Source of the DNA: Isoetes taiwanensis
Lineage: Eukaryota; Streptophyta; Lycopodiopsida; Isoetales; Isoetaceae
Assembly (NCBI GenBank): GCA_021234155.1
Contig: JAJEKV010000004.1
Location: 4,404,109-4,468,108, forward strand
Direction: 5' to 3'
Length of the DNA stretch: 64,000 bases
This document shows, piece by piece, positions 31,860 through 59,854 of this stretch. Below the pieces are notes generated by a model, which worked only from the letters and a program-made list of their open reading frames with translations, did no database searches and was not told the DNA's origin. Each line of letters starts with the position of its first letter. Positions within the stretch are counted from its first letter, which is position 1. The position numbers and the translations under genes are program-made.

Positions 31860-32279
31860 GGTATCAAACTGTTAACAGGATTGCGTATTAAACGGGAGCA
31901 AATCATCGAAACGAGAGCGAAAGGAATATTCCTCAAAGATTCCCTTTTTTTTTACAAAAGGGGGTAAAACTAGGTTTAAAAAAAAAGATGCATGAAATTC
32001 TATTTTGACCCCCAAAATGACTAATTGTTTTGTGCAACGAAAGAATTGACATTTTCAAAGTGTCACTTTTCTTAGCAAATAGAATGTTCTTGAAGTATAT
32101 TTTACGAGAGAATCTCTAATTTAAGAGGATAAAATATTTAACAAAAAATTGAAGTAAGTCCCAGAATCGAAAACTGTAGTATTCTCAAATTTTGAAGATA
32201 GAATCTTCATATTCACATGCAAAATTTCTGATCTTTTTCTAAGACTCGATTTATGTACAAAAGTGTGAGGAGTGATGAG

Positions 32280-35200
32280 AGAGGGATCCGGGGCGTCATC
32301 ATGTTCATTTATGCCATCCTCATCACCTTCACTTCTTTCACTATCACTAGAGGAAGTGCTTGAGTTATCTTCCTCATCACTATCAACGGATGGTGAAGCA
32401 TTGCCACCACCTTCTTCATCCTCTTCTTCGTAATTACAAGCTTTTTAAGCAAATTGATAGTCCTCTGGCGTGAGGCGATTGTCGTGATTTCAATTTAAAA
32501 TCATAGCATAATATAGTCCGTCATTAAGGATCAGCTCATCCCTACAACCCACCTTCTTGGACTTTCTCCCTTTTCCTTGGCTTCTCATTTCTAACTCATA
32601 TCTACCTTCAAAAGCATTTTTCGAAGCGGCGTGTTGCAAGCCAATGAATCTTGAGTTTAGTGACTAAGCCTTCCTCCTTGGTGTGTCAAGCACTTTTGCT
32701 ATCCAGAAAGGTCGACCTTTGTCATCCTCCTCATTGGAAGAGCAATTAGCATACCCTTAGTAATTTCGCGGATATTACCTTGAGGCTCATTCTGCGTCTT
32801 GGTCCGGGGTACATGACTCGATCCTCGTCTTATTCTCATGCAAGGTGCTAACGTTAGCATTGCTTGGACCCGCTTGGTCTTTGGGGTTGATGGAAGGTGT
32901 TAGGCCATTGAAATGGTTCTTGCAACCTGTCTTAGAGCTATATTTTTCACAACAATTTTTGTTAGAAAGAAGTTACTCCACCACATCAGATCTTCTTCTA
33001 AGAAGTACTTAAAGCTTCGAGGAAATTCCATTTTCAATGGCTTTTAAGGATGACTTCGGGGGTACTTTTCTTTTGCTTGGACTCCTTAGGATTTTTGAGA
33101 GGAAGTTGCTCAAAGACACGTTCTCTGAAGGAAGTGTCCGGAATATATTTAAGGAAGCGTAATCCCTCTGGTGGACTCGGTCCTTAGTTGTGGTATACTT
33201 CTTGCCCCTGTAAGAAACTCGGCCATCCTTCAAGTAGAACTTGATGTGATGTTGAAAGGTGAGATCATTCAATTTGTTCACGACTTGTTCTGCATGCGAG
33301 CGTTGAGAGAAAATAAACTCTCTCGAAATCAGCAGATCTCTTTAAGAAGATCGATCACCGGAGTGGGAGTGTAAGAATCTTCAATAATTGAACTAAAGTA
33401 GGAAGAGAGAAAGCCTTCTTCCTTCCGAGGCGCCTGTAAAATCTCTTTGAACATTTGGTCAATTTGATCATGAGTGTGGCCTACAAGTAAGAAACCGGCT
33501 TCACCTTTCTAAAGATCCCTAGCTCCACTAACATGGCACAAGATGCATAAAAGAGTGTTTGGTTCTTGTTCTCCCTTGTAGTATTGTCAAGTTGCAGGTA
33601 AAGCACTGGTGGTAATTGCTCTTGCTCGCACAGGACCTTGTTAAGAATTGTAATTGTGAGGTTCGGATCACCATGCAAGTTTGGATACGTCAAGAATACT
33701 TTGCACTTTAGACTTCCTTTGAAGACCATATAGCTCCTACAAGGTGGACCTTAACAAAACATTCCTGGCACATCTTTAGGAATGTTCAAGAAATGCGGTA
33801 GAGTAGTTTTTTTTTGGTCCATTCCATCAATCACAACAGACATATATTGCAGTGGACGTTCAAGAGCTTTTTTTCTGTGTTTGGCAAGCTTTCTTCTCTC
33901 TGCTGCTTGTTGTTCACGATGTCCGCAAGGTTCTCATGTTGCACAATATCTATAGAAGAAATGAGGTCAAAGCATTATCTTTAAAACAAGTGAGAGATTG
34001 GAGAACATGAGCTTACTTCTTTCGACCTCTGTCTTTGCGGTTTCTCTTTGACTCTTTAATTTCAGACACCTTGAGCAAGCGGACATTCTATGTCTCCGGG
34101 AATTTTCACTAAACCGAATTCACTTTTCCACGGGCCCGGTGAAGTGTGAGTAAGAGATGTCTCAAGCTGAGTGCAAGTCTCTTTGTACTCATTAAAACAT
34201 CTTTTGGTGATGTTATCGGTTAAATGATACATGTTCTTTGTTGGCTGACTTCTCACATGTTTCTCTAAAATATTTCTCCATCCATGACACAAAGAAGAAG
34301 GGCATGCATGGTTACAACTCTTCTTGGTCCACAATGATCATCAATTCTTTGGATTTTTGTCCGATCTTTTATGTATTCTAGACATTACGGTGGACCCTAA
34401 GCGGTGGACAACCATGAAGCATTTCGGCAAACTTCTTGACGGTTAATGTAGTGCAAGAAGGTGTTATGGTCTGGTCTTACATGATAGGCCAAATAGGCAT
34501 TACGGGTCACCAATGTCATTGAATCAGAAGTTGTCTCTAATTGCTCGTAATTTAGCCATGTTAAATTTGTTGATGCAACCCAATGAGCGGCATTTACTTC
34601 TTAAAAGTCTTCTCATTTTGTGCTCGTCCATAAAGGTTTCTTCTTCTTCTGGAGGAGCATGCTCTCAAACTAAAATCCACTTTGAATTTCTTGGTGGATT
34701 GGCTAGAGAATGTGTAATCTCGTTGCGCCGTTGGTGTCTTCATCTCCTCGAAGAGAGTTCTACTGGGGTGACCTCCTCTACCCTCAGTGGTGTGCTTGTA
34801 GAGGAGAACAAACCACGTGAAGCTATACCCGGATAAAGGCGGAGGTGCGTGTTGAATGAAGGAGATGGGCCACCATATGATGTGCCAGTGAAAGTTGTTG
34901 TAGCTTCTTCACAAGGAGTTCGATCAAACATGTCTCTTATAGCGGTGAAATTACGCAAAACCATGTGTCACTACGGTTGTGTGAAGAGGAGTAAATGTTG
35001 CAATGTAAGCCTTCATTTGTTGTGAAATCGTGGTGGGAGAAACAGGTCTTGAACGTCTTGTATTCCTTGTTTGTGTAAGTGAAGATGGAGAAACTACAAA
35101 CTGGTGAGGTAATGCTTTTGAACTATTTTTTGAGGTCGAATTTGTAGTGTCGGGGATGTTACAAATGGTGGTGGAAGATTGCTCACGATGCAAATGTGAG

Positions 35201-35440
35201 GGCTGGAAAGGTGGTGGCAACCGGTTTCCCTCTTGGACTTGGAGAGGGTTGGAAAGGTGGTGGCGGTCTACTGATTCTTGGACTTCTGAGTGTCTTCGAG
35301 AAGCAACAAAGACCTTGTCGAGGTAGGTGTTGAAGAAGCATCTCCGCCTTGTGTTCCATCCAAGTAGAGGTACTTGGGCAAACAAATGGTGGTGGAAGTT
35401 TGTTCCAACGACTTCGGTTAACCATGTTGAACATTCGCAA
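32280..35440 (-). pseudogene. DUF7869-like putative transposase gene, copy A
   Basis: Reading minus, segments in several frames give the DUF7869-type core: VVIDGMDQKKT (near 33,830), GDPNLTITILNKVLCEQEQL, LYLQLDNTTRENKNQTLF (near 33,580), MLVELGIFRKV and VGHTHDQIDQMF (near 33,470). Upstream are GFARI..TAIRDMFDRTPC and a Thr/Pro-rich N-terminus. Downstream is an acidic Ser/Glu/Asp-rich C-terminus (32,290-32,440). An intron with a good acceptor lies near 33,950-34,015. The conserved D, D-N and H-T-H...D residues resemble an RNase H-fold nuclease, hence the transposase proposal. DUF7869 membership is from memory of the family pattern. Copy A has more frame breaks than copy B. Confidence 0.6.
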
Positions 35441-35834
35441 AAAATTGTGGACTTGTTACTAACTCACAAGTCGATTGGACTGAAAAGATACTAGAGAATA
35501 CAAATGCTATTAGGAATACTAATTTGATACCCTTTGTGCCCCGTTTCTTTGTTTGTGTAACATTTTCTATTCTAAAAACACTTGGACGAAGTGTTTAAAC
35601 AAGGCGTATTAGCATTACATAGAAAAATGCAACATATTTTGACATTGTCTGGCCTACCTTTTAAAAGGAAAATTCACCTCGATTTGCATATTAAAGCCTC
35701 GAGAGATTTGATAACCTTGACTTTTTCAAATCTATATTGATTTTTTTTGTATTCATAGATTCTTCCAAGCGAAAATAATGGGTGGTGTAATTCATAATTA
35801 AAAGATACATAATGCGTGGACATTTCGTGTGTTT

Positions 35835-36140
35835 AATGTTTTGCTTTTTAAGCCAAAGTGTATTCCGTATACATTTTTGAGCTTCTGGCGTGCAAAGTGT
35901 ATTAGGAATACACTTTAAACTTATACCGCAAGGGGCAAAAATAAATTTATATACACTTTGTTCTCTAGAGGATAAAAGTATGCAGGATTTATACATTTTT
36001 TGTATATATAGTATATATATAAAGTATATATATAGTACTGTTAACAAAAATCAAAAAGGGCAATGTGTATTCCGGGAATACATTTTTGTACATGTAAGAA
36101 AAACAAAGTGTGGCCCGAATACACTTTTTTTATCTTCTTG
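35835..36140. repeat. Palindrome array, copy A, between the divergent genes
   Basis: Degenerate copies of the GTGTATTCCGGAATACAC palindrome (e.g. GTGTATTCCGTATACA, GTGTATTAGGAATACAC, GTGTATTCCGGGAATACA) occur in the interval between the DUF7869-like gene and the first ParB-like gene, matching 49791-50050 in copy B. Confidence 0.65.
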
Positions 36141-36369
36141 AAAACACTAGTTTTTGCACTTGAACACCACTTTTAGTCTATATATAATATAAAACCAATT
36201 TTTAGTTTGAACACTCCACATTTTGCCCATTAAGGGCATGAAAAATTGTGCTAAAAAGACAATATTTGTGTTTTTGTTGTCTTTTGCTAGCCTTTAGGGC
36301 AAATGATTAGTAAATCCTATTCGGAATATAGCTTTTCGTCTTATTTTTTACGTCTTAACATTGTTGTAC

Positions 36370-38093
36370 GCAATGTTTCAAAGAATGGGAGGAAGAAAAG
36401 TTGACAAGGAGCAACAAAAAAGACTTTGAAGATTAAGCGTCCACACCCTCAAAAGCGCACCTGACACAGGAGGAGCCTACCATTTTGAAAACTTTCAAAG
36501 CGGTGGTTCATTACCAAAAGTGCAAGGCGGAAAAGTACAAAGACATTGACGCTTTGTCAGACGTCACGTAAAAGTCTTTGGAAAAAAAAGGTGCGTACCG
36601 AACCGAGTTTGTCAACCTTGGGACAATTAAAGAGGTCTCGGAGGTAGCGGGACAAGGAGGTCGGGACGGGGAGGCTATCCTTCAAGACCTCCCAAAGGGT
36701 TCATTATTGTTGACATCGCCTTCTTTAGAATTGTCGGTGTGCAACCACAAACACTACAATTTCTTTTCAACTCATGGGGACTAAGCGTGCAGCTTGACTT
36801 CACTATGCAAAAACAATGGTTTGTACTAGTACCCGTTTGAAGATTTTGGCTCGATGTTTTAAGTCAGGAAAGACGTTTATCCAGGATGGAGGATCATCAC
36901 CTTCTCCTAGTAATTCCGGGGTCATCGGATGGAGGTCCCCAAGATACAAAAAGAGGATTTTTCAATGGTTGTGCCATAAAAAGAAACCTAGCAATTGCCA
37001 AGAGACTTTAAAATGTGATTTTAAGGAACCAAAGTTAAACGGAAGGTAAAGCGACTTGAAGTCATGAGCAGTTTGGAAGCACAAAAAACAAAAGGGAAAA
37101 GGAAAAGCTCCGGGTAGCAAGAAAAAGAAAAGAAAGTTGATAAGATTTTAGAAAGAATGGAGGTAATAAACGAAAAAATTTGTACAAGGGTGATCTATCT
37201 TCCATAACTTGCATTGGGCTGCCCCAAAGAATGGTGGCTGGTGAAAGGCCGCTTCAGGGTTCATGGAAAAATATATGCCGACTTGTTTTTAAGGAACCTG
37301 AAGGATAGAATTAGGAGCAATCCCAAATGCTCATGTGGAATAATTAATAGTTGTCCTTGTTGGCGGGGAGCAATGCAACACCCCGGGACTACACTTGAAA
37401 AAAAGTTTAAACAACACTCACTCACGCCTTGGGAGGAAATCATAGAAAAGGCAAGAAGGGGTGCCTACTTTAAAAAAATTTTGTGTATCTTTCCGTTGTG
37501 TAATGCGGGATTTAGTCGGTCTCACCAACGAAGAAACAAAATATTGCCAATACACACAATCGACGACAAGCGAATACAAATTAAAAATGAGCTTTGTCGA
37601 CAAGATCAGGTTCATGCACCCGAGGTACATGATTTTTAAAGAAAAATATGGAGAAGACTTGAAGAAACCGGTACTCCTTAGAGTTAATACACTTTGCTTT
37701 TTGCCAGTGGAGTGTATTTGCCTACACTTTTGCCAAGACGAGGCTAACAAATGGCAGTCACTCATACCGCATGACAAAGTGGTTTCAATTTGCCTTGAGA
37801 GATGGCGAGTAAGTGTCTTTTGTATTGCGGAATAACTTTCTTGCCCTCTTTGACCTCGTTTAAAACTGTGCAGATATGGGACCTACAAAAGATATTTACC
37901 ATGTTCGGCGTGGTGAATTGAAAAGTAAAGGGAAGGTCTCGAAAAAAAAAAAAGGTTACGAAGTCCCAAAAAAGAAATGGCGATTTTAGTGTGGAGAGAA
38001 ATGGGGGCTTTCTTTAAGGACATACTAGAAAATTGTGCTAAAGTAGACAAAGAATTTGTTTTAGAAGAAATGTCCAAAGAAATTTTTAGGTAA
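36370..38093 (+). pseudogene. ParB-like gene 1, copy A
   Basis: Matches the gene at 50290-51976 along its length: Lys-rich start, TEFVNLGTIKEVSEVAGQGG, Ser-rich acidic stretch, KIYADLFLRNLKDRIRSNP, and the C-terminal exon after CTGTGCAG. It is broken by many small indels, most at positions where copy B has CAG or CTG. See the copy B entry for function. Confidence 0.6.
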
Positions 38094-38149
38094 AAATGAG
38101 AGAACTTTCGTTTTAGGTTTCTTTCCTTAGCACTAAGCATATTCGAATG

Positions 38150-39737
38150 TTTCGAGAGATCCGGAAGAACACTACGGGCAACAAAAGTAGTCTAAGAGTG
38201 TATTCGAATACACATCCGCCTACAAGCCGAAGCAAAAAGTGTATGAAAACTTTAAACGCAGTGGTTCATTACCAAAGTGCATTGGCCGTTTACACTTTTT
38301 GCGAAAAGTCTTTGGAAGCAAAAGTGTATTCCGATACAGTTTGTCAACCTTGGGACAATTAAAGAGGTGTATTAGGACAAATACACGGGGAGGCTATCCT
38401 TCAAGACCTCCCAAGGGTTCATTATTGTTGAATACTTCTTTAGAATTGTCGGTGTGCAACCACAAACATGAGTCAATTTCTTTTTCTGGGACTACAATTT
38501 GACTTCACTAATTGGCGGAGTTTGTACGTAGTCTTATTTAAGTTTTTTGTCGTTGACTTCGAGCAAAAATGGAGGATCATCACCTTCTCCTAGTAATTCC
38601 GGGGTGTTTGATGGAGGGTCCCAAGATTTCAAGAGGAAGAGGTGGGAGCCAAAGAAACCTAGCAAGCCAAGAGACACTATAGCCGCTAAGGAACCATTCA
38701 AGCTCCAAAGGTATAGCAGCTTTGAAGTTGCTTTTTTCTTGAGGAAGCAAAAAAAACAAAAGGGAAAAAGGAAAAAGCTCAGGGGGTAGCAAGAAAAGAC
38801 TTTAATCATTACCTAAGACCAAGAAGAATGGAGGTAATAAACTGAAAAATTTGTACAGGGGTGATCTATCTTCACGTAACTTGCATGAAGCACCAAAAAA
38901 GAATGAAGCCGGTGAAAGGCCGCTTCAGTTCGTAAATATATGCCGACCACTTAAGGAACCTGAAGGATAGAATTAGGAGCAAAATAATGCTCATGTGGCT
39001 CAATAGTTGTCCTTGCTGAGGGGAGCAATGCAACACCCCCGTGACTATGACAGAGAAAAAGCGTAGACTTTACACTCATTGGTCTTGGGAGGAACTTGCC
39101 ATAGCTTTAAGGCAAGAAGGATAGCCGCATAAGGAAAAAAATAACCTTTGTGTATCTTTCCGTCTTCAATGCTTTCGTGGTCTCACCGACGAAGAAGCAA
39201 AAATCGTTACATAACACAAAACAATGCCGACAACGAATACAAATTAAAATGAGCTTTGTCGACAAAGATCCGGTTCATGCACAGGAGTACATGATTTTTA
39301 AAAAGAAAAAATATGGAGAAGACTTGAAGAAACAAGTAAAATTTTAGAGTTAAAGGAAGCCTGCGCAGTGTCCTTGAATCAAAGTCAATGACGAGGCTAA
39401 CAAATGGTGTTCACTCATACCCGCATTTGGTTTCAATTGGTTCAGAGATGGCGGAGTAAGTAAGTGTCTTTTGTATTCTGGAATAACTTTGCTTGCCCTA
39501 TTCGGGCGTTAAAATCGCGGCGTGATATGGGACCTACAAAACTAGATATTTAACTATGTTCGGCGTGGTGAATTGAAAATAAAGGAAGGTCTCGGAAAAG
39601 AAAAAAGGTTAAGTCCCAAAAAAAGAAATGTAGCTGGGGAGGGAGAGAAATGGTGGCTTTTACCATGGACATACTTCTTTCTTGCAAGGTAGTAGACAAA
39701 GAATTTTTCTGAAGAAATGTCCAAGGTTCCTGGCAAA
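38150..39737 (+). pseudogene. ParB-like gene 2, copy A
   Basis: The second tandem copy is preceded by palindromes (GTGTATTCGAATACAC near 38197). It retains recognisable pieces of the whole gene (LRNLKDRIRSK, FVDKDPVHAQEYMIF) but is frameshifted throughout. It corresponds to 52145-53688. Confidence 0.55.
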
Positions 39738-39809
39738 AATAGAGAGAACTTTCTCGCTTTTAGGTTTCTTTCTTAGCACTAAGCATATTCCGTATGATGA
39801 GATCAAAAC

Positions 39810-41280
39810 ATTATAAAGGAAGTAGTCTAGAGTGTATTGTACATACATCCGACATGTTCTCAAGAAAAAGTGTATTAGAATACCTTGAATACACTTTCTC
39901 CAACGGTAAAACAGTGGGCTAATACACTTTTTGTACAACGTGAAGCAAAAAGTATTCTTTGTTGACACTTTTTAAAGAGGCGCAGTTTTGGACTTCATCA
40001 AGATGAGGTTTTGGCCTTTCATACCAATGTGTATTCGGGATGAAAATTTCCTCTTTTGGTCTTTTCGTTTGTCTTATTTTGTTTTTTTGCCAAGATGACA
40101 TCAAAAAAATGATATAGCCTCCTGTTTTGATGGAAGCGGAAGATGCGTGGGCTACCTTGCAAGGAGCTCATCCCATTGCTAGCTCATAGCTACTATTCAA
40201 TATGCTCCAAATTTTGAGGGATGGGACACCGTTTTTGTTTTAAAGTTTTCCGTTTGTGTTGCAAAGGAGCAAATTGAAGAAGAAGAAAACAAGGACACGC
40301 GGCAGGTTTTGCAAACCACACCCAGAGGACTTTGATTTAGACCTGAAGTTTCTTTTGCTATATTTTTTTTTTTTTCGATCAAAATAATTTTTATTCTATC
40401 GTTCATGGGATAAAAGTTGGAACATAAAGCCACTTATTTTGATTGGTCAGCGGACTTGCCAATAGGCCGGATAGGAAAAATTCATTTTCATGGTCACGGA
40501 TTCAATGCTTCGCCGATCTCATTAAGCAAAGTTACCACAACAAAAGAGCGTCTTGATGTTCCATTCAGCCATAGCCCGGTACTATGGCAAGCTCAAGAAC
40601 CACCGGTTCCCTTCAGCCAGTAATTGAAAACATGGTATGGGCATCCCTTCTCAACCTGAGTTCATGTGCATTACCATGGTTCCAACCGCACCCAACTACT
40701 ATGGAAATCGTACCTTTTATGACTATGGAGCCCATAAAAACTACCATGGTCTCTTGATCAAGGTTAAGAAATCTCCGTAATGATTTACCTAGTGGAGTAG
40801 TCTGTCATCGGCAATGGAATTTTCACTAATGGTGATTCGTCCTCTTCCCAAAGCTCATAGTACTACAAGAGCTATGATCCTTTTCGGAGGATAATACCAC
40901 CACCATGAAGTTCAAACCGAAGGATATTGAGTCCCTTTGAAAATCTGGTACAACAATAGCATGCTAAAAAGGTTTCCGCTTCTTCATTGATAAACACTAA
41001 CTCGACTTCATCATGGAGGATGCGCTCTCAAACTCTAGTGAAAACCAAATAGGAGCTCCATTGCAAGATGACATCCTCAACCTCTTCATTAAGGAAGATG
41101 AAGCTACGCTGCGACTCAAAAAGTAGCTCTAGCTACTATTCTGAGCTGTTGTTGACACCAAAGTTCCAAGTCCCAAATTGAAGAGAAAAAAAGGTGAGCT
41201 TCGCAACAAACTACTATGGGAGGGGCCTCTTCGATTTAGAAGATATTGTTTTCTTTGCTATATTATTTATTATTGGCTAC
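39810..41280 (+). pseudogene. DNA methyltransferase gene, copy A, with leading palindromes
   Basis: This is the degenerate counterpart of 54089-55529. The lead-in (39,810-39,950) has broken palindromes. Then SICSKF-like text, DQNNFYSIVHG-like sequence (40,370-40,400), GACTTGCCAATAGG where copy B has the catalytic motif, and the 3' end CTTCGATTTAGAAGATAT. The order of segments in 40,620-41,100 differs from copy B (the FSGSGTT region is not intact), so rearrangement as well as small indels occurred. Non-functional. Confidence 0.5.
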
Positions 41281-41593
41281 AAAAACGCCATATTCTTTGT
41301 CTTGTAAAAGAAATTAATAAAATAAGAAATTTATTTTACGTATTTTGATGTTTTCGACTTCACAAGTTTATATTCCGGTGTATTAGTATGCGGAATTACG
41401 CCATTTTCAAGTGCTCTTTCCTACAAATCACGAGATTATCATTTTAAAAGGGCCCCAAAATGCATGATATAATATTTTGTTCCATAAATCCCAAGCTTCT
41501 TTTGAAAATGAACATTTTTCCAATCTTGTGTTTTTAAGGGAATCTTTGAAAGCGGGAGTGATGCAACACTCCGGTTTAATTTACAATCTCGTT

Positions 41594-45864: not shown

Positions 45865-46245
45865 ATGAGGAGGTTCATGATTAAGCGGGAGCAAATCATC
45901 GAACGAGAGCGAAGGAATATTCCTCAAAGATTCCCTTTTTTTTTACAAAAAGGGGGTAAAACTAGGTTTAAAAAAAAAGATGCATGAAATTCTATTTTGA
46001 CCCCCAAAATGACTAATTGTTTTGTGCAACGAAAAGAATTGACATTTTCAAAGTAATCCTTTTCTTAGCAAATAGAATGTTCTTGAAGTATATTTTCTGA
46101 GAGAATCTCTAATTTAAGAGGATAAAATATTTAACAAAAATTGAAGTAAGTCCGTGAACTGAAAGCTATTAGTATTCTCAAATTTTGAAGAAGATAGAAT
46201 CTTCATATTCACATGCAAAATTTACGGTCTTTTTCTAAGACTGGG

Positions 46246-49200
46246 TTATGTACAAAAGTGTGAGGAGTGATGAGAGAGAGGGATCGGGGCGTCATCATGT
46301 TCATTTATGCCATCCTCATCACCTTCACTTCTTTCACTATCACTAGAGGAAGTGCTTGAGTTATCTTCCTCATCACTATCAACAGATGGTGAAGCATTGC
46401 CACCACCTTCTTCATCCTCTTCTTCGTAATATACAAGCTTTTTAAGCAAATTGATAGTCCTCATGTAGGCGATTGTCGATTTCAATTTAAAATCATAGCA
46501 TAATATAGTCCGCCATTAAGGATCAGCTCATCCCTACAACCCACCTTCTTGGACTTTCTCCTTTTCCTTGGCTTCTCATTTTCTAACTCATATCTACCTT
46601 CAAAAGCATTTTTTCTCGTGTTGCAAGCCAATGAATCTTGAGTTTAGTGACTAAGCCTTCCTCCTTGACTGTAGTCAAGCACTTTGCTATCCGAGAAAGG
46701 TCGACCTTTGTCATCCTCCGGGTTGGAAGAGCAATTAGCATACCCTTTTAGTAATTTCGCGGATATTACCTTGAGGCTCATTCCTGGCGTCTTGGTCCGA
46801 GGTACATGACTCGATCCTCGTCTTTATTCTTGCGGGGTGCTAGCGTAGCATTGCTTGGACCCTGCTTGGTGTGGGGTTGATGGAAGGTGTTAGGCCATTG
46901 AAATGGTTCTTTGCAACTGTCTTAGAGCTATATTTTTCACAACAATTTTTGTTCGAGAAAGAAGTTACTCCACCACATCCGATCTTCTTCTAAGAAGTAC
47001 TTAAAGCCTGAGGGAAATTCCATTTTCAATGGCTTTTAAGGATGACTCTGGGGTACTTTTCTTTTGCTTGGACTCCTTAGGATTTTTGAGAGGAAGTTGC
47101 TCAGCACGTTCTATGAAGGAAGTGTCTGGAATATATTTAAGGAAGCGTAATCCCCTGGTGGACTCCGGTCCTTAGTTGTGGTATACTTGCCCCAGAAGAA
47201 ACTCCGCCATCCTTCAAGTAGAACTTGATGTGATGTTGAAAGGTGAGATCATTCAATTTGTTCACGGCTTGTTTCTGCATTGCAACGTTGAGAGAAAAAT
47301 AAACTCTCCGAAATCAGCCAGTCTCTTTAAGAAGATCGATCTTTGGAGTGGGGAGTGTAAGAATCTTCAATAATTGAACTAAAAGTAGGAAGAGAGAAAG
47401 CCTTCTTCCTCTCGAGGCGCCTGTAAAATCTGCTGAACATTTGGTCAATTTGATCATGAGTGTGGCCTACAAGTAAGAAACCCAGCTTCACCTTTCTAAA
47501 GATCCCTAGCTCCACTAACATGGCACGATGCATAAAGAGTGTTTGGTTCTTGTTCTCCCTTGTAGTATTGTCAAGTTGCGTAAAGCACTGGTGGTAATTG
47601 CTCTTGCTCGCCGCGACAGACCTTGTTAAGAATTGTAATTGTGAGGTTCGGATCACCATGCAAGTTGGATACGCCAAGAATACTTTGCACTTTAGACTTC
47701 CTTTGAAGACCATAGCTCCTACAAGGTGGACCTTAACAAAACATTCCTCCGCACATCTTTAGGAATGTTCAAGAAATCTTGTAGAGTAGTTTTTTTTTGG
47801 TCCATTCCATCAATCACAACAGACATATATTGCAGTGGACGTTCAAGAGCTTTTTTTCTGTGTTTGGCAAGCTTTCTTCTCTCTGCTGCTTGTTGTTCAC
47901 GATGTCGGCAAGGTTCTCAAGGTACAATATCTATAGAAGAAATGAGGTCAAAGCATTATCTTTAAAACAAGTGAGAGATTGGAGAACATGAGCTTACTTC
48001 TTTTCGACCCTCTGTCTTTGCAGTTTCTCTTTGACTCTTTAATTCAAGCACACCTTGAGCAAACGGACATTCTATGTCTCCGGGAATTTTCACTAAACCG
48101 AATTCACTTTTCCACGTCTGGTGAAGTGTGAGTAAGATGTGTCAAGCCGAAAGTGCAAGTCTCTTTGTACTCATTAAAAACATCTTTTTGGTGATGTTAT
48201 CGATTAAATGATACATGTTCTTGTTAGGCAGCTTCTCACATGTTTCTCTAAAATATTTCTCCATCCATGACACAAAGAAGAAGGGCATGCATGGTTACAA
48301 CTCTTCTTGGTCCACAATGATCATCAATTCTTTGGATTTTTGTCCGATCTTTTATGTATTCTAGACATTCGGGTGGACCCTAAACGGTGGACAACCATGA
48401 AGCATTTCGGCAAACTTTGACGGTTAATGTAGTGCAAGAAGGTGTTTGGGTCTGGTCTTACATGATAGGCCAAATAGGCATTCGGGTCAGCCAATGTCAT
48501 TGAAGCGTAGTTGTCTCTAATTGCTCGTAATTTAGCCATGTTAAATTTGTTGATGCAACCCAATGAGCGGCATTTACTTCTTAAAAGTCTTCTCATTTTG
48601 TGCTCGTCCATAAAGTTTCTTCTTCTTCAGAGGAGCATGCTCTCAAACTAAAATCCACTTTGAATTTCTTGGTGGATTGGCTAGAGAAATGTAATCTCGT
48701 TGCACCGTTGGTGTCTTCATCTTCCGAAGAGAGTTCTACTCGGGGTGACCTCCTCTACCCTCGGTGGTGTGCTTGTAGAGGAGAACAAACCACGGAAGCC
48801 GGATCCTGATAAGGCGGAGGTGCAGTGTTGAATGAAGGAGATGGGCCACCATATGATGTGCCAAATAAAAGTTGTTGTAGCTTCTTCACAAGGAGTTCGA
48901 TCAAACATGTCTCTTATAGCGGTCGAAATTCTCGCAAAACCATGTGTCACTACGGTTGTGTGAAGAGGAGTAAATGTTGCAATGTCGCCTTCATTTGTTG
49001 TGAAATCGTGGTGGGAGAACAGTCTTCGGAACGTACTGTATTCCTTGTTTGTGTAAGTGAAGATGGAGAAACTACAAACGGCTGAGGTAGTCTGTTTCGA
49101 ACTATTTTTGAGGTCGAGAATTTGTAGTGTCGGGGATGTTACAAATGGTGGTGGAAGATTGCTACGCAACAGGTGAGGGCTGGAAAGGTGGTGGCAACCG

Positions 49201-49406
49201 GTTTCCCTCTTGGACTTGGAGAGGGTTGGAAAGGTGGTGGGTCTACTAGTTTCTTGGACTCCTGAGTGTCTTCGAGAAGCAACAAAGACCTTGTCGAGGT
49301 AGGTGTTGAAGAAGCATCTCCGCCTTGTGTTCCATCGGAAGTAGAGGTACTTGGGCAAACAAATGGTGGTGGAAGTTTGTTCACGGCGGTTAACCATGTT
49401 GAACAA
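46246..49406 (-). pseudogene. DUF7869-like putative transposase gene, copy B
   Basis: Same gene as 32280-35440. The N-terminal part (48717-49406, 229 codons) is Thr/Pro/Ser-rich and ends near TAIRDMFDRTPCEEATTTF. Next come NMAKLRAIRDNYASMTLADP, LPKCFMVVHRLGSTRMSRI and a Cys/Trp region (PFFFVSWMEKYF). An intron (about 47,930-47,995) precedes LAKHRKKALERPLQYMS and IDGMDQKKT. The core TQLDNTTRENKNQTLF and VGHTHDQIDQMFSRFYRRL is at 47,400-47,600, and an acidic C-terminus lies at 46,246-46,485. It would be the transposase of X if the DxN/HTHxD residues are catalytic. It is the only candidate for that role in X. Frame breaks may be partly sequence error. Confidence 0.65.
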
Positions 49407-49790
49407 GCAAAAATTGTGGACTTGTTACTAACTCACAAGTCGATTGGACTAAAGATACTAGAGAATACAAATGCTATTAGGAATACTAATTTGTGTGCGG
49501 CGTTATTTGTTTGTGTGCCTGATGCTATTCCGAATACTTGGCCTTAGTGTTTAAACAAGACGTATTCCGCATTACATAGAAAAATGCAACCGGCGGTGGC
49601 CTACCTTTAAAAAGGAAAATTCAGCCTCGGTTGCATATTCCGCCTTCAGAGATTTAGTCAGCCCGAAAGCGCCTTCCGATCTATATTGATTTCTTTGTAT
49701 TCGATTCACATAGCGAAAATAATGGACGGTAAGCAATTAAAAAGTACATAGTACGTCTTTCGTGTGTTTAATGTTTTGCTTTTGTAAGCC

Positions 49791-50050
49791 AAAGTGTATT
49801 CCGAATACACTTTGAGCTTCTGGCGAAGTGCAAAGTGTATTCGAATACACTTTGTTCTCTTCGTGACAAGGGCAAAGTGTATTCGGAATACACTTTGCTT
49901 TCTTCCTAGAGGGCAAAGTGTACCGGAATACACTTTGCCCTCGAAGAGAAGAAAAATGTATTCGAATACACCCTTTTTCCGAAGGGCAATGTGTATTCGA
50001 ATACACTTTGCCTTTAGCGAAAGAGCAAAGTGTATTCCGGAATACACTTT
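49791..50050. repeat. Array of seven palindromes in the divergent intergenic region of X copy B
   Basis: Palindromes at 49791-49814, 49832-49853, 49874-49896, 49915-49936, 49953-49973, 49988-50009 and 50027-50050 share the consensus GTGTATTCCGGAATACAC. AAA and TTT usually extend the arms on both sides. Spacing is about 40 bp. The centre varies (CG, CCG, CCGG). It lies between the DUF7869-like gene and ParB-like gene 1, i.e. over both promoters. Confidence 0.85.
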
Positions 50051-50289
50051 GCTTATCTTCTTGAAAACACTAGTTTTTTTGCACTTGAACACCACTTTTT
50101 AGCTGTAACAGACCAATTTTTAGTTTGAACACTCCACATTTTTGCCCATTAAGGGCATGAAAAATTGTGCTAAAAAGACAATATTTGTGTTTTTTTTGTT
50201 GTCTTTTGCTAGCCTTTAGGGCAAATGATTAGTAAATCCTATTCTGGAATATAGCTTTCGTCTTATTTTCTGTCTTAACATTGTTGTCT

Positions 50290-51976
50290 GCAATGTTTCA
50301 GTAACAGGGAAGAAGGCAGCAAAAGGGCAACAAAAAAGACTTTGAAGATTAAGCGTCCACACCCTCAAAAGCGCACCGGTGACACGGAGGAGCCTACCAT
50401 TTATGAAAACTTTCAAACGCAGTGGTTCATTACTTGGGTGCGATGACGGAAGTAAAGACATTGACGTTTCAGATGCGTGCAGTAAAAGTCTTTGGAAGCA
50501 AAAGGTACGCCGACCACGAAGTTTGTCAACCTTGGGACAATTAAAGAGGTCTCGAGAGGTAGCGGGACAAGGAGGTCGACGGGAGGCTATCCTTCAAGAC
50601 CTCCCAAGGGTTCATTATTGTTGACACGCCTTCTTTAGAATTGTCGGTGTGCAACCACAAACACCGTACAATTTCTTTTCACACTGGGACTAAACGCAAG
50701 CTTGACTTCACTAATTAGACAGGTTTGTACTAGTACCAAATAAGATTTTCCTGTCGGTGAGTCGAGCGGTCGGATGGAGGATCATCACCTTCTCCTAGTA
50801 ATTCGGGGGTCATCGGGATGGAGGGTCCCAAGATTTCAAGAGGAAGAGCCCCAGGTGCGCTTAAAGAAACCTAGCAAGCCAAGAGACACTATAGCCGCTT
50901 AAGGAACCAAAGAAGCGGAAGGTATAGCAGCTTGAAGTTGCTGAAATCCCCGAGGGAAGCACAAAAACAAAAGGGAAAAGGAAAAGCTCAGGGGTAGCAA
51001 GAAAAGAAAAGAAAAGTTGATAAGACCTCGAAAAGAATGGAGGTAATAAATGCGAAAAATTTGTACAAGGGGTGATCTATCTTCCTCAGAACTTGCATGA
51101 AGTTGCCCCCAAAGAATGAAGTCTGGTGAAAGGCGCCTTGGGTTAAAGAAAATATATGCCGACCACTTAAGGAACCTGAAGGATAGAATTAGGAGCAATC
51201 CTAATGCTCATGTGGCGCCAATAGTTGTCCTTGTTGACAGGGAGCAATGCAACACCCCCCAGGACTATGACAGAGAAAAAGCAGACACTTACACTCACTA
51301 CGTCTTGGGAGGAAATCATAGCTTTAAGGCAAGAAGGCAGCTGTACAAGGAAAAAAATAACCCCAGGTATCTTTCCGTCCTGTGTGCAGTCTACTGTGGT
51401 CTCACCGACGAAGAAGCAAAAATCGTTGCCAACACACACAATGCTGACAACGAATACAAATTAAAAATGAGCTTTGTCGACAAGATCCGGTTCATGCACA
51501 GGGAGTACATGATTTTTAAAGAAAAATATGGAGAAGACTTGAAGAAACCAGCGTACTCCTTAGAGTTAAAGGAAGCCTGCGCAGTGGAGTGCTGCCTCAA
51601 GTACGACGAGGCTAACAAATGGCAGTCACTCATACCGCATGACAACTGGTTTCAATTAGCCTTCAGAGATGGCAGAGTAAGTGTCTTTTGTATTCTGGAA
51701 TAACTTTCTTGCCCTCGACTGACCTCGTTTAAAACTGTGCAGATATGGGACCTACAAAACGAGATATTTACCATGTTCGAGCGTGGTGAATTGAAAAGTA
51801 AAGGGAAGGTCTCAGAAAAGAAAAAAGGTTCTGAAGTCCCAAAAAAAGAAATGACGATAACAGTGTGGAGAGAAATGCAGGGCTTTACTGATCTGGACAT
51901 ACTAGAAAGGCTACTGCAGAAGGTAGTAGACAAAGAATTTACTCTAGAAGAAATGTCCAAGGAACTGCACAGGTAA
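50290..51976 (+). CDS. ParB/sulfiredoxin-like domain protein, gene 1 (X copy B)
   Basis: The ParB N-terminal domain binds DNA palindromes (parS) or acts as a nuclease or CTP switch in prokaryotes. Here a Lys-rich start (TKKTLKIKRPHPQKR) is followed by TEFVNLGTIKEVSEVAGQGG-type text and an acidic Ser-rich linker. The ParB-like domain is at about 51,150-51,480: LRNLKDRIRSNPNAHVAPIV, YTHYVLGGNHSFKARRQLYK (ParB box GxHRxxA as GGNHSFKA), CGLTDEEAKIVANTHNADNE, KLKMSFVDKIRFMHREYM. A 66-nt intron (51677-51742, AGA|GTAAGT ... GTGCAG) leads to a C-terminal helical exon (IWDLQNEIFTMFERGELKSK) ending LEEMSKELHR at 51976. The front half has frame breaks compared with gene 2. Domain identity is by pattern. 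Confidence 0.65.
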
Positions 51977-52022
51977 AAATGAGAGAACTTTCGTTTTAGG
52001 TTTCTTTCCTTAGCACTAAGCA

Positions 52023-52140
52023 TATTCCAGAATACAGTAGAGATCCAGAACACACTACGGATTCTGCAAGTAGTCTAGAGTGTATTCCGGAATACACATC
52101 CGCTTACAAGCCGAAGCAAAAGTGTATTCCGGAATACACG
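52023..52140. repeat. Palindromes between the two ParB-like genes
   Basis: ATTCCAGAATAC (52024), GTGTATTCCGGAATACAC (52080-52097) and again at 52122-52139. The last overlaps the start of gene 2. Confidence 0.85.
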
Positions 52141-52144
52141 GGGT

Positions 52145-53688
52145 GCAGACGGAAAGTACAGCACATTGACGTTTCTGTACGTCTGTAAAAGTGCTGGAAG
52201 CAAAAGGTACGCCGACACAGAGTTTGTCAACCTTGGGACAATTAAAGAGGTCTCAGAGGTAGCCGGACAAGGAGGTCAGACGGGGAGGCTATCCTTCAAG
52301 ACCTCCCAAGGGTTCATTATTGTTGACATCGCCTTCTTTAGAATTGTCAGTGTGCAACCACAAACACTGTACAATTTCTTTTCACACTACCGGACTAAAC
52401 GCAGCTTGACTTCACTAATTAGACAGGTTTGTACTAGTACCAGCGAAGATTTTCCTGTCAGTGAGTCAGAGCAGTCAGATGGAGGATCATCACCTTCTCC
52501 TAGTAATTCCGGGGGGTCATCAGATGGAGGGTCCCAAGATTTCGAAGAGGAAGAGCCCCCAGTGCCGCCAAAGAAACCTAGCAAGCCAAGAGACACTATA
52601 GCCGCTAAGGAACCAAAGAAGCGGAAGGTATAGCAGCTTGAAGTTGCTGAAATCCCCGAGGGAAGCACAAAAAAACAAAAGGGAAAAGGAAAAGCTCCCG
52701 GGGTAGCAAGAAAAGAAAAGAAAGTTGATAAGACCTCCGAAAGAATGGAGGTAATAAATGCAGAAAAATTTGTACAAGGGGTGATCTATCTTCCTGTAAC
52801 TTGCATGAAGCTGCCCCCAAAGAATGAAGCTGGTGAAAGGCCGCTTCAGGTTCGTAAAATATATGCCGACCACTTAAGGAACCTGAAGGATAGAATTAGG
52901 AGCAATCCTAATGCTCATGTGGCGCCAATAGTTGTCCTTGTTGACAGGGAGCAATGCAACACCCCCCAGGACTATGACAGAGAAAAAGCAGACACTTACA
53001 CTCACTACGTCTTGGGAGGAAATCATAGCTTTAAGGCAAGAAGGCAGCTGTACAAGGAAAAAAATAACCCCAGGTATCTTTCCGTCCTGTGTGCAGGCAT
53101 GCCCATCGTGGTCTCACCGACGAAGAAGCAAAAATCGTTGCCAACACACACAATGCTGACAACGAATACAAATTAAAAATGAGCTTTGTCGACAAGATCC
53201 GGTTCATGCACAGGGAGTACATGATTTTTAAAGAAAAATATGGAGAAGACTTGAAGAAACCAGCGTACTCCTTAGAGTTAAAGGAAGCCCACAAGAATGG
53301 AGTGTCTCCAAGTACGACGAGGCTAACAAATGGCGATCCACCATACCGCATGACAACCGGTTTCAATTAGCCTTCGAGATGGCGAGTAGTGTGTCTTTGT
53401 ATTCTGGAATAACTTTCTTGCCCTCGACTGACCTCGTTTAAAACTGTGCAGATATGGGACCTACAAAACGAGATATTTACCATGTTCGAGCGTGGTGAAT
53501 TGAAAAGTAAAGGGAAGGTCTCAGAAAAGAAAAAAGGTTCTGAAGTCCCAAAAAAAGAAATGACGATAACAGTGTGGAGAGAAATGCGAGGTATTTTACT
53601 TGATCTGGACATACTAGAAAGGCTACTGCAGAAGGTAGTAGACAAAGAATTTACTCTAGAAGAAATGTCCAAGGAACTGCACAGGTAA
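52145..53688 (+). CDS. ParB/sulfiredoxin-like domain protein, gene 2 (X copy B), cleanest front half
   Basis: A tandem copy of gene 1 without its Lys-rich first part. The frame reads TEFVNLGTIKEVSEVAGQGG, FKTSQGFIIVDIAFFRIVSV, then a Ser/Glu linker, then KPRDTIAAKEPKKRKV, a classical monopartite nuclear localisation signal. A single TAG follows (52631-52633) at a place that reads as a glutamine codon CAG changed by C to T, and the same frame then continues through KVDKTSERMEVINAEKFVQG, VIYLPVTCMKLPPKNEAGER and the ParB-like domain (LRNLKDRIRSNP, GGNHSFKARRQL). 53,290-53,400 is noisy. The C-terminal exon (53452-53688) is intact. Whether the TAG is real, or read through, is open. Confidence 0.6.
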
Positions 53689-53733
53689 AAATGAGAGAAC
53701 TTTCGTTTTAGGTTTCTTTCCTTAGCACTAAGC

Positions 53734-54019
53734 ATATTCCAGAATACAGTAGAGATCCAGAACACACTACGGATTCTGCAAGTAGTCTAGAGTGTATTCC
53801 AGAATACACATCCGCTTACAAGCCGAAGAAAAAGTGTATTCCGGAATACACTTCTGCTTCCAACGTAAAGCAAAAGTGTATTCCGGAATACACTTTTGCT
53901 TCCAACGTAAAGCAAAAGTGTATTCCGGAATACACTTTTGCTTCGGCTTGTAAGCGGATGTGTATTCCGGAATACCTTTTGGCCTTTCACATGAGTCAAA
54001 TGTGTATTCCGGAATACAA
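53734..54019. repeat. Palindrome array upstream of the methyltransferase gene
   Basis: Seven sites: 53734-53748 (half-preserved), 53792-53809, 53834-53851, 53875-53892, 53917-53934, 53960-53976 and 54002-54017. The middle three are perfect GTGTATTCCGGAATACAC with longer flanking symmetry (AGCAAAA ... TTTTGCT). Two more TATTCTGGAATA sites lie inside the methyltransferase intron (54811-54845). Confidence 0.85.
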
Positions 54020-54088
54020 TTTGGTTTCCTCTTCTTGGTCTTTTCGTTTGTCTTATTTTGTTTCCTTGTCGTTGACTTCCAGCCAAAA

Positions 54089-55529
54089 AAATGTTATTAC
54101 GTGCCAAACGTGTTTGATGGAGCAGCTGAACGTGGACAGCTGGGAGAGGTGCAGAGAGCTCTATCCCATTGCTACATCCGACGAGCGTATTATTCAATAT
54201 GCTCCAAATTTTGAGGGATGGGTATGTCGTTTTCTTGTTTTTAAAGTTTTCCGTTTGTGTTGCATGAAGCTGACTTTAATCATTAACAGAGCAAGAAGAA
54301 GAACAAGGACCTGCCAGAAGGTTTTGCACCTGGTACGAACAGCCAGAGAAGAGAGGACCCTAGCGGACAGGCGTGTTGTAGATGCTGAGCCGTCCGACTA
54401 CGATAGGTTTTCTATGTTCGATCAAAATAATTTTTATTCTATCGTTCATGGGGACTGCACTAAGTTGCCAGGCAGTATAAAGCCACAAGATTTTACATTG
54501 GTCATAGCAGACTTGCCATATGGTTTCAAGCTGAAGGATAGCCTTCTGACGATCGCCTTTCAAAACTTCGAATTCAATGCTTTCGTCGATGGAATTAAGC
54601 AGGTTACCACAGCAAAACACTGGCGTCTTGTTGTGTTCCATTCAAGCATGCAGGCCGGCCTTGTGGAAGCTACTTTCAAGAACCACTTCGGTTCCCCTGT
54701 GCAAGCCGGTTATGAAAACATGGTCTGGTGAGTCCTTGAATCAAAAGTGCAGTTCATGTGTTCTTTCTTTCAAGTTTTTTTTCATGGTTGCAATTGTAAC
54801 CCGTCAGGGTGTATTCTGGAATACGTACTTACTATTCTGGAATACGATCTTGCAGGTACAAAACTAATATTAACTACCATGGTGGAGGACCCAGGTCTGC
54901 CGAGCAAGGTTAAGTATCTCCATGTAGCTAGTTTGGAGTTCGGCCGGAAGCGCACCATGGAGCACTTCAACACTTGCAACCCGCCGGAATTTTTCTAATG
55001 TCCTAGAGTTCCAAGCCAGTGACATGTAAGCTCCGGGGACCCAAGTGCACAAGGCAGAATTGTAAATCATTATCAGAAGCCACAGAAGCTAATCAACCAT
55101 ATTCTGGACATGTTCTCACGTCCAGGAGATTGGGTCCTTGATGCTTTCTCTGGCTCTGGTACAACAATAGCATGTGCACTTAAAAGGGCCAGAATTGTGT
55201 TCTTTGTTGACATTGATAAAGAGGCTGTAGACTTCATCAAGATGAGGTTGTCTGCTCTACCAACTCTACCAGATGAAAATCAAGAGTTAGGAGCTAAATC
55301 ATCATCAGATTTTGCCAAGATGACATCCTCTGAGATATAGCCTCCTTTTACAAGCTCTCTGGAAGATGAAGCTACCTTTGCAGAGCTCAAAGAAGTAGCT
55401 CTAGCTACTATTCCTGAAGAGACTGTTGACACCAGCAAAGATAAAACTGTGCCAAAGGAGCAAATTGAAGAGATAGAAAAAGGTGAGACGAGCAAACCAC
55501 ACACTGAGGACTTCGATTTAGACCTCTGA
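54089..55529 (+). CDS. Beta-class N4-cytosine/N6-adenine DNA methyltransferase (X copy B)
   Basis: The gene encodes a prokaryote-type DNA amino-methyltransferase (N6_N4_Mtase family). Exons: to 54221 (ERIIQYAPNFEGW|GTATGT), 54290-54727 and 54856 onward. Exon 2 carries FYSIVHGDCTKLPGSIKP and catalytic motif IV as VIADLPYGFKL. The last exon carries VNHYQKPQKLINHILDMFSR, then the SAM-binding motif I GDWVLDAFSGSGTTIACALK and VFFVDIDKEAVDFIKMRL. Motif IV before motif I is the beta-class order. Motif IV reads DLPY, not DPPY or SPPY, so activity and target base are uncertain. A TAG at 55338-55340 is followed in the same frame by 62 acidic codons to TGA (55527-55529), so it probably replaced CAG. Frame shifts near 54,380 and 54,900 need checking; an intron contains two palindromes. 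Confidence 0.75.
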
Positions 55530-55856
55530 GTTTTCTTTTGCTATATTATTTATTATTGGCTACAAAATACTGCCATATTTACTGTACTGTAAAAGAAATT
55601 AATAAAATAAGAAATTTATTTTTACGTATTTTTGATGTTTTCGACTTCCTGGTTATATTCCTGGTGTATTAGTATCTGGAATTCTGCCATTTTCAAGTGC
55701 TCTTTCCTACAAATGCGAGATTATCATTTTAAAGGGCCCCAAAATGCATGATATAATATTTTGTTCCACTTAAAATCCCAAGCTTCTTTTGAAAATGAAC
55801 ATTTTTCCAATCTTGGTGTTTTTTTTAAGGGAATCTTTGAAACGGGAGTGATGCAA
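55530..55856. other. Right subterminal region of element X
   Basis: AT-rich, non-coding. It contains ATTCCTGGTGTATTAGTATC and TGGAATTC half-sites of the palindrome family (about 55660) and leads into the terminal hairpin (55840-55867). The corresponding region of copy A is 41,270-41,567. Confidence 0.5.
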
Positions 55857-55883
55857 CACTCCCGTTTAATTTGCAATCCTGTT

Positions 55884-56989
55884 TGTTTTCCTGAATATGT
55901 TACAACTCCAACATGCTTACCTTCTTTCTTTTGGCAAAGAGCTACTCCAATGGCCCATTCTGTCACTGTTACATAGGCTATAAAGGGTTGACTGAGATCT
56001 GGTGGTATTATAGCCTGAGCAGCTTTCATAGCTTCCAACAAGGTTTTAAAAGCTTGGGCACAAACCTCATCCCAGGCTACTATAATATGCTTACTTTGTC
56101 CCTTGTCCAACTTACCTACCCGTGTTAGCTTTGCAATAGGTGCCATGATGTGAGAAAACTTGGGGATATGCATTCTAAGAAAAGAACACATCCCAATCAA
56201 CTTCCGTACTTCTTTTACAGTTCTAGGTGGAGGTAATTGTTCAAGTAAGTTAATCTTCTCTTTCGAGATCTGAATTCCTGTTGTGGATACATAATGTCCC
56301 AAAAGTGTTCCTCCTGGTACCAAGAAAGTACATTTTGCTGGATTAAGACATACTTTTGATTTTTGGCTTAGCGACAATACTTCCCTGATCATTTCTATAT
56401 GCTCTGCTCTATTATTTGCCAGGCAGAGGTCATCAAGGAATATTCCAAGTCCATTTGTAAGTGCTGGTGCAAAAGCCTTTGCCATAGCTTTTTGAAATGT
56501 CGCAGGAGCATTCATGAGGCCAAATGGCATGACTGTCATAGCAAATGTCCCCCACGGAGTGATAAATGCAGTTTTAGGCCTATCCATTTTTGCCATAGTG
56601 ATTTGGTTGAAACCAGAGAACCCATCCATAAAGGAATAGGCCTCTTTACCTACGGCCGAGTACAATATTTCATCCTGGAAAGGTATTGGGAAATGATCCT
56701 TCAAGGTGGCCTTGTTCAGATCTGTAAAATCTATGCATACCCTTATTTTCCCGTTTTTCTTTAAAACTGGGACAATAGCAGATACCCATGAAGGGTTTTC
56801 AATTGGATATATGAACCCTACCTTTAACAATTTTTCAACTTCCTCCTTCACAAGATTCAGTAAAGTAGGGTTGATTCTCCTCAATTTATGCATTACTGGC
56901 TTAGCACCGTCCTTAATGTTCACATGGAACTCACTCACTTCCTTAGGGATTCCTTTGAGTTCGCTGTAATCCCAAGCAAAGCAGTCCAC
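55884..56989 (-). CDS. Retrotransposon reverse transcriptase and RNase H N-terminus (outer copy)
   Basis: This synthesises DNA from the element's RNA. The open frame starts downstream of a TAG (57000) and gives CIDFTDLNKATLKDHFPIPF, YSFMDGFSGFNQITMAKMD, FGLMNAPATFQKAMAKAF and the active-site motif as FLDDL. These are followed by the connection domain (KLIGMCSFLRMHIPKFSH) and RNase H up to VTYSGKQ, where element X begins. The frame runs a further 53 codons into X by chance. FLDD replaces YxDD. The rest of RNase H is at 31859. All RT blocks are intact. Confidence 0.92.
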
Positions 56990-56995
56990 ATATTG

Positions 56996-59809: not shown

Positions 59810-59854
59810 GTTCTGTCACCCAAAGGGTTCTCCAGGCAAGATCTCTAATTAGAG

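Follow-up and report, generated by a model that had tools for sequence, protein, structure and literature searches.

Why should a DNA transposon of a lycophyte carry a methyltransferase of prokaryotic type, and which DNA might such an enzyme act upon? The question arises from a window of 64,000 nucleotides of Isoetes taiwanensis (assembly GCA_021234155.1, contig JAJEKV010000004.1, positions 4,404,109 to 4,468,108; coordinates below are those of the window), where an element bounded by terminal inverted repeats (TIRs) holds a putative transposase on the minus strand and a cargo gene on the plus strand. From its sequence, the cargo is best read as one predicted spliced gene coding for an N-terminal domain, a nuclear localisation signal (NLS), a ParB-like domain and a beta-class methyltransferase (MTase) of the N6_N4_Mtase family, and its introns hold arrays of an 18-bp palindrome. 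The reading that we favour, tentatively and at somewhat less than an even chance, is that this nuclear ParB-MTase fusion would recognise the arrays of its own transposon family and mark it, either counteracting silencing or keeping the family mobile.

A first-pass annotation, whose coordinates fall inside the second of two element copies in the window (copy B, ~10 kb in length), described two adjacent ParB genes followed by a methylase gene. The motifs that it named (GGNHSFKARRQL, LTDEEAKIVANTHNADN, EPKKRKV, DLPYGF and VLDAFSGSGTT) are all present in the order given, as are introns with GT..AG borders in the cargo gene, the TIRs and a minus-strand putative transposase with a DUF7869 domain. 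Its central observation, bacterial-type methylase and ParB-like domains in an intron-containing context on a TIR element in plant nuclear DNA, holds; its gene model had to be revised. The features are:

31874..41593, transposon copy A, with target-site duplication (TSD) TGTT on both sides; the right TIR has CGTT for TGTT
45865..55883, transposon copy B, colinear with sister copy E10; left end approximate, its TIR garbled; right TIR ends ...CTCCCGTTTAATTTGCAATCCTGTT
46246..49424, minus strand, putative transposase gene; open reading frames (ORFs) with broken frames in copy B
47327..47758, minus strand, DUF7869 domain of the putative transposase (Pfam E 2.2e-32)
49722..49728, plus strand, exon 1 of the ParB-MTase gene, ATGGACG in copy B, then donor GTAAGC
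49794..50047, palindrome array of intron 1, next to the divergent promoter region, with shortened centres at several of its sites
50302..51676, plus strand, exon 2, first copy, coding for the N-terminal domain, the NLS and the ParB-like domain (DUF6551 E 0.0022)
50904-50924, plus strand, NLS in exon 2 (EPKKRKV)
from 51308, plus strand, ParB-like domain motif GGNHSFKARRQL in the first copy of exon 2
51743..51972, plus strand, exon 3, first copy, ending AG before donor GTAAAA
52080..52139, two exact palindromes at the junction of a local duplication
52140..53684, plus strand, duplicated part of exon 2 and exon 3 (first annotated as a second ParB gene)
53792..54019, palindrome array of intron 3, six sites 42 bp apart
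54083..54221, plus strand, exon 4, the ParB-MTase junction exon (QKNVITCQTCLMEQLN...), coding from the acceptor onward
54290..54727, plus strand, exon 5, with motif IV DLPYGF at 54510-54527
54809..54826, degenerate palindrome (3 mismatches) in intron 5
54856..55529, plus strand, exon 6, with motif I DAFSGSGTT at 55140-55166 and the stop at 55529 (N6_N4_Mtase E 4.7e-14)

The exon structure was read with the help of sister copies. Exon 1 is ATGGACAG followed by GTAAGC in L009, L010 and L013, and exon 2, which is in phase after it in L009 and L010, encodes a basic start, then an unassigned domain, the NLS-like EPKKRKV and the ParB-like domain. Among 11 copies examined, exon 3 ends CACA(A/G) before a GTAA donor in all eight in which it was found, and was not found in L012, D3 and window copy A. 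Exon 4, not found in copy A, begins with C after the acceptor AG, in the phase that exon 3 requires, and SQKNVITCQTCLMEQLN runs from this acceptor in nine of the ten copies having the exon, D61 being frameshifted there. Over the 11 codons between the acceptor and the first ATG, L010 and L013 differ by eight synonymous and no nonsynonymous codons, and the corresponding counts are 6/0 for L010 against D37 and 5/0 against D3. Because the codon changes upstream of the first exon-4 ATG are synonymous only, this stretch is read as coding, which makes one ParB-MTase fusion, as in the alga Ectocarpus, the simplest gene model, with exon 3 predicted to splice in phase to the first methylase exon. A separate methylase gene, as first annotated, was rejected as the main model on the same ground, namely that the exon is coding upstream of its first in-frame ATG. 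Two separate ParB genes were also rejected: exons 2-3 are locally duplicated (~1.71 kb) in the window copy, the ParB exons being single in four of the five sister loci fetched (L009, L010, L011 and L013) and missing from L012. Frame breaks are present in several sister copies too. In the eight copies read, the exon 3 donor GTAA overlaps an in-frame TAA (window 51973 and 53685), because of which retention of intron 3 could yield a ParB-only protein, a possible two-product switch.

Judged by profile and motif, the assignment of the methylase domain is solid. The spliced exons of L010 match PF01555 (N6_N4_Mtase), the profile against which the first-pass annotation had proposed to check it, with 69.1 bits over a gathering cut-off of 26.7 (E 6.8e-19), and the domain also matches phrog_67 (E 7.1e-27). 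Its motif order is that of the beta class, DLPYGF, which we take to be motif IV (xLPY/PPY), standing before DAFSGSGTT, presumably motif I (DxFxGxG). Adenine N6 would be a more likely target than cytosine N4, because the PDB matches rank CcrM (6pbd, E 1.6e-12), MboIIA and RsrI ahead of an N4-cytosine methylase (E 0.055).

The carrier is a high-copy TIR DNA transposon family. In a genome search covering 1,658,258,908 bases on 1,110 contigs, the methylase exon gave 150 scored matches out of 2,521 candidates, so that the copy count is at least 150, and the scored copies are spread over many contigs, some of them tens of Mb long. The sister copies E10, E11 and E13 have 7.7-8.3 kb in common (22 kb compared), and the element ends are inverted repeats of the form AACAnnnTTGCR-ATTAAACGGGAG. 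All seven insertions with both ends readable have, by eye, a 4-bp TSD (AAAC, ATAA, TTGG, ATAC, TATA, ATTA and TGTT), window copy B having been omitted for its garbled left end. Twenty left ends were fetched from 40 listed among 1,264 candidates; 19 start AACAA(GA/AG), and all 20 continue into the element, one of them just to base 583. This sampling by best match gave autonomous-type copies, and the non-autonomous class was sampled separately by its own type of end (N-type). The minus-strand protein of the element is a DUF7869 protein (Pfam E 3.2e-51 for a 552-aa ORF in sister copy L011, E 2.2e-32 in the window), which we infer from its position and the TIRs to be the transposase; its AlphaFold model was unusable (predicted local distance difference test, pLDDT, 30), and DUF7869 was not found by name in the literature searched. 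The family is of the cut-and-paste type and probably Sola-like, the Sola superfamily being suggested by the 4-bp TSDs and the Ectocarpus precedent. In the text available, Sola2 elements are given the TSD AWWT (PMC3627910), and since none of the seven TSDs fits it, Sola1 is a better guess for the branch than Sola2. The PF20188 profile found no match in the genome and was likewise silent in all 14 control genomes, so that its silence here carries no information.

The candidate target is the 18-bp palindrome GTGTATTCnnGAATACAC, which occurs 4,650 times in the genome with any two-base centre and 2,585 times exactly with a CCGG centre, the reversed pattern, used as a control, being found nowhere in it. 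The window holds 10 instances of GTGTATTCCGGAATACAC at up to three mismatches, where 0.04 would be expected, and more sites with a shortened centre. Palindrome clusters lie in element copies in 20/20 of those fetched, all chosen by the exact palindrome, and with the palindromes masked these copies are ~65-92% identical to the element (left out were C62, C64, the second clusters in C30 and C39, and C23 and C50, the last two coinciding with methylase-exon matches). Autonomous copies carry the palindromes in introns 1 and 3, with single sites in short introns; in E10 the arrays lie well inside the element, ~3 kb from its left end and ~2 kb from its right, with one degenerate site ~1 kb from the right end. 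Of the 71 distances of less than 130 bp between neighbouring sites, 53 are 41-43 bp, or about four helical turns; the 102 sites underlying this come from 11 sequences, of which seven were fetched for their palindromes, and passed a filter that fixes TTC and GAA and permits three other mismatches. Positions in the middle of the spacer carry almost no information, and the mid-spacers of adjacent units have a median identity of 50% (32 pairs). The centre is CG, CA/TG or, once, TA in 50 listed sites, and the change from CG to CA/TG is as expected from decay of methylated CpG. By eye, one copy's left end stands directly within the palindrome array of another in L029 (~915-945), a nested insertion.

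The arrays are also kept by non-autonomous relatives. N4 (3.8 kb), N29 and N35 (3.2 kb) have the same ends as the element and 4-bp TSDs, contain no stop-to-stop frame longer than 141 aa, and hold palindrome arrays near both ends. As these three were found via their palindromes, the test was repeated with the 97-base terminal sequence alone: 10 of 12 N-type left ends had one or more sites, lying 350-490 bp in from the end, and 9 of 12 had at least two, the sample being the second to thirteenth of 40 listed among 1,376 candidates, and the 12 ends, of one family, not being independent.

As far as codon changes can tell, the ParB-like and MTase parts are under purifying selection across diverged copies. 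The set comprised 13 distinct loci, L003, L006 and L007 having been removed as the same places as L009, L011 and L012; seven were long enough for the ParB exon and 13 for the methylase exons. Taken over pairs with a synonymous divergence (dS) above 0.15, which are not independent, the ratio of nonsynonymous to synonymous divergence (dN/dS) has a median of 0.07 in the ParB exon (13 of 21 pairs, eight saturated; seven loci), of 0.20 in MTase exon 5 (28 of 78 pairs, 39 saturated; 13 loci) and of 0.08 in exon 6 (45 of 78 pairs, 16 saturated). Three copy pairs of the transposase gave 0.43-0.53 at dS 0.18-0.29, a depth not equal to that of the cargo pairs. A comparison of E10 with E13 shows a mosaic, the transposase half being 93% identical and most of the ParB-MTase half 78%. 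In this pair (L010/L015 against L013/L016) dS is 0.29 for the transposase and 1.31 for methylase exon 6, exon 5 being saturated, and the break lies near the intron-1 palindrome array, as if modules had been exchanged there.

Taken together, a pathway can be envisioned in which the element encodes a nuclear ParB-MTase fusion protein that would recognise the phased arrays of palindromes in non-coding DNA of its own family, non-autonomous copies included, and would methylate nearby bases. Such methylation might counteract host silencing by 5-methylcytosine (5mC) and histone H3 lysine 9 (H3K9) marks, or otherwise keep the family expressible and mobile, and the system would then work like the VANC anti-silencing proteins of the Arabidopsis VANDAL elements, built from prokaryotic parts. 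Recognition, the chemical mark and the benefit to the element are all inferred here. A self-marking function, as the first-pass annotation had proposed for the pair of domains, is plausible on this sequence and is strengthened by the palindrome arrays. The more specific form, that of a vascular-plant family in which a ParB-like/CcrM-like fusion reads the palindrome arrays, writes N6-methyladenine (6mA) or N4-methylcytosine (4mC) and so evades host 5mC silencing, seems to us possible at best, with the chances leaning against it.

Several observations weigh against this self-marking by a ParB-MTase fusion, beginning with the identity of its N-terminal half. PF02195 (ParBc), the profile that the first-pass annotation had expected to match, gave no match up to an E limit of 10, at which the HMMER filters drop most hits above ~0.1; DUF6551 reached 13.3-18.5 bits against a cut-off of 26.8 (E 0.0015-0.061), and TIGR03764 'ParB family protein' 19 bits against 143.75, matching three of six members with a best E of 0.0004. 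A profile search of the PDB with this part returned no ParB, just Na/K-ATPase beta subunits at E ~1, and its AlphaFold model was as unusable (pLDDT 39) as that of the DUF7869 protein, probably through shallow alignment depth. Phrog_30771 matches it at E 0.0045. The ParB assignment is therefore weak, and the domain is called ParB-like, and not a ParBc member, because PF02195 does not match and the other profiles stay below their cut-offs. The palindromes, moreover, are linked to the ParB-MTase by location alone, as against the transposase or a host factor; two of the 12 N-type ends have no palindromes, none of 20 autonomous-type left ends has one in its first 1.1 kb, and tandem duplication may explain part of the 42-bp spacing. 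As to selection, single pairs reach dN/dS of 0.63, 0.56 and 0.91 for the ParB exon, exon 5 and exon 6, and for close pairs (dS 0.01-0.15) of the methylase exons the medians are 0.25 over 11 pairs and 0.28 over 17, although the higher values in close pairs are also what the decay of young copies would be expected to give.

Spm/CACTA elements carry subterminal repeats, and the arrays a few hundred bp from the ends of the non-autonomous relatives resemble these, which makes it conceivable, though on balance unlikely, that the fusion is a transposition cofactor: the palindromes would be cis sites at which the ParB-MTase or the DUF7869 protein binds to assemble the transposome, and the role of methylation would be to set strand choice or timing and not to act on silencing. 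The internal arrays of E10 and the 0/20 left ends speak against such a role. That the palindrome belongs to the transposase or a host factor, as a promoter, an intron enhancer or an RNA hairpin, with the ParB-MTase target lying elsewhere, strikes us as distinctly improbable; co-location is the sole link of palindrome to ParB-MTase, and palindromic introns could in principle fold as RNA, yet the arrays are concentrated in the ParB-MTase introns and recur in copies otherwise 65-92% identical, at loci picked by the exact palindrome.

More doubtful again is self-restraint, in which the methylase would mark its own family for repression and so limit damage to the host. The palindrome centres, with their change from CG to CA/TG, do suggest host 5mC at these sites, and in bdelloid rotifers, according to the text available, N4CMT places 4mC on transposons as part of a silencing system (PMC8885841). 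N4CMT, however, is a host gene and not one of a transposable element (TE), and a TE-borne gene that stays under purifying selection while synonymous divergence grows large fits an advantage for the element itself. Hardly any weight is left for a viral insertion or for contamination from bacteria, phages or giant viruses, of which the first-pass annotation had named the bacterial kind as a possible refutation. The methylase is a prokaryotic type, and 42 phage records contain methylases that match it at <60% identity, but the intron-exon structure, the TIRs, the 4-bp TSDs and the 150 scored copies over many contigs, some tens of Mb long, exclude contamination as an explanation of the locus. The ParB part, furthermore, has no tblastn match in phages or plasmids and none in IMG/VR, in a search that reaches close relatives only; this source was rejected on copy number, contig spread and these negatives.

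As to the setting in the window, the same left flank AAATACCTAGTTTCCAAGGTATCAAAC precedes copies A and B, ~14 kb apart, and since this outer flank is common to both, the copies are a tandem segmental duplication of ~14 kb, real or due to assembly redundancy, and not two insertions. Differences from E10 are enriched at CAG/CTG (window 32933-35850, 46923-49790 and 50310-53735): 13-44% of such positions differ in the window copies against 3-7% elsewhere, as compared with 10 against 8.5% and 16 against 14% in two control copies, and three of the four comparisons show an excess at CCG/CGG as well. In three comparisons the CAG/CTG differences are indels or A>G/T>C in 46 of 67, 55 of 90 and 22 of 36 cases, and C>T/G>A in 11, 20 and 7. 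This looks like assembly error, arguably from nanopore miscalls at CHG-methylated sites (H being A, C or T), and in that case error density would be a crude proxy for the silencing of a copy. Adjoining the duplicated elements, long minus-strand open frames (423, 138 and 800 aa; window 55724-59815) have by eye the look of a Gypsy-type retrotransposon. Beside the left end of L010 and L011, SET-domain-like and Ulp1-protease-like open frames were seen by eye, mostly outside the element ends.

Returning to the self-marking fusion, full novelty, as supposed at first pass, does not stand, as fused ParB-MTase proteins in algal transposons, with the same idea, are already published, the Ectocarpus precedent among them (PMC12477816). 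In the text available, the algal element too has ParB-like and N4C/N6A methylase domains in one protein, opposite to a DNA-transposon transposase; compared by description, the present one differs in its vascular-plant host, its length (~8.3 kb against 21.5 kb) and its candidate target palindromes (PMC12477816). What is new relative to the published algal fusions is the palindrome code as a candidate target, and neither a land-plant case nor a target motif for a transposon ParB-MTase was found in the literature searched (titles and abstract openings). The algal precedents name no target in the text available, and here there is a concrete candidate in a high-copy, apparently selected lycophyte system; if the reading is true, it would be, as far as that literature goes, the first defined target code for a transposon-borne DNA methylase of prokaryotic type. 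Three questions thereby become open to direct test: do plant transposons put DNA marks of bacterial type on their own copies, can 6mA or 4mC counter silencing by 5mC, and has sequence-specific anti-silencing arisen on more than one occasion? With CcrM and the beta-class adenine methylases the domain shares motif IV before motif I and the best PDB match (6pbd), and it differs in having DLPY where CcrM has DPPY, a ParB-like N-terminal half, an NLS, introns and a transposon as its carrier. The closest functional precedent, by analogy, is VANC21, likened here by function alone: VANC is not known to be a methylase, whereas the present protein is a ParB-like methylase with an 18-bp palindrome as its candidate motif and belongs with another transposase family. 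The N4CMT of bdelloid rotifers is likewise a bacterial-type amino-methylase in a eukaryote and linked to transposons, but is described, in the text available, as a host gene fused to a chromodomain, where the present gene is transposon cargo (PMC8885841). VANC21 itself, in the available account, binds a short motif that forms arrays within the introns and other non-coding DNA of VANDAL21, and the likeness lies in a TE-encoded protein and a family-specific motif that is arrayed in the element's own non-coding DNA and rare in other TEs (PMC5735166).

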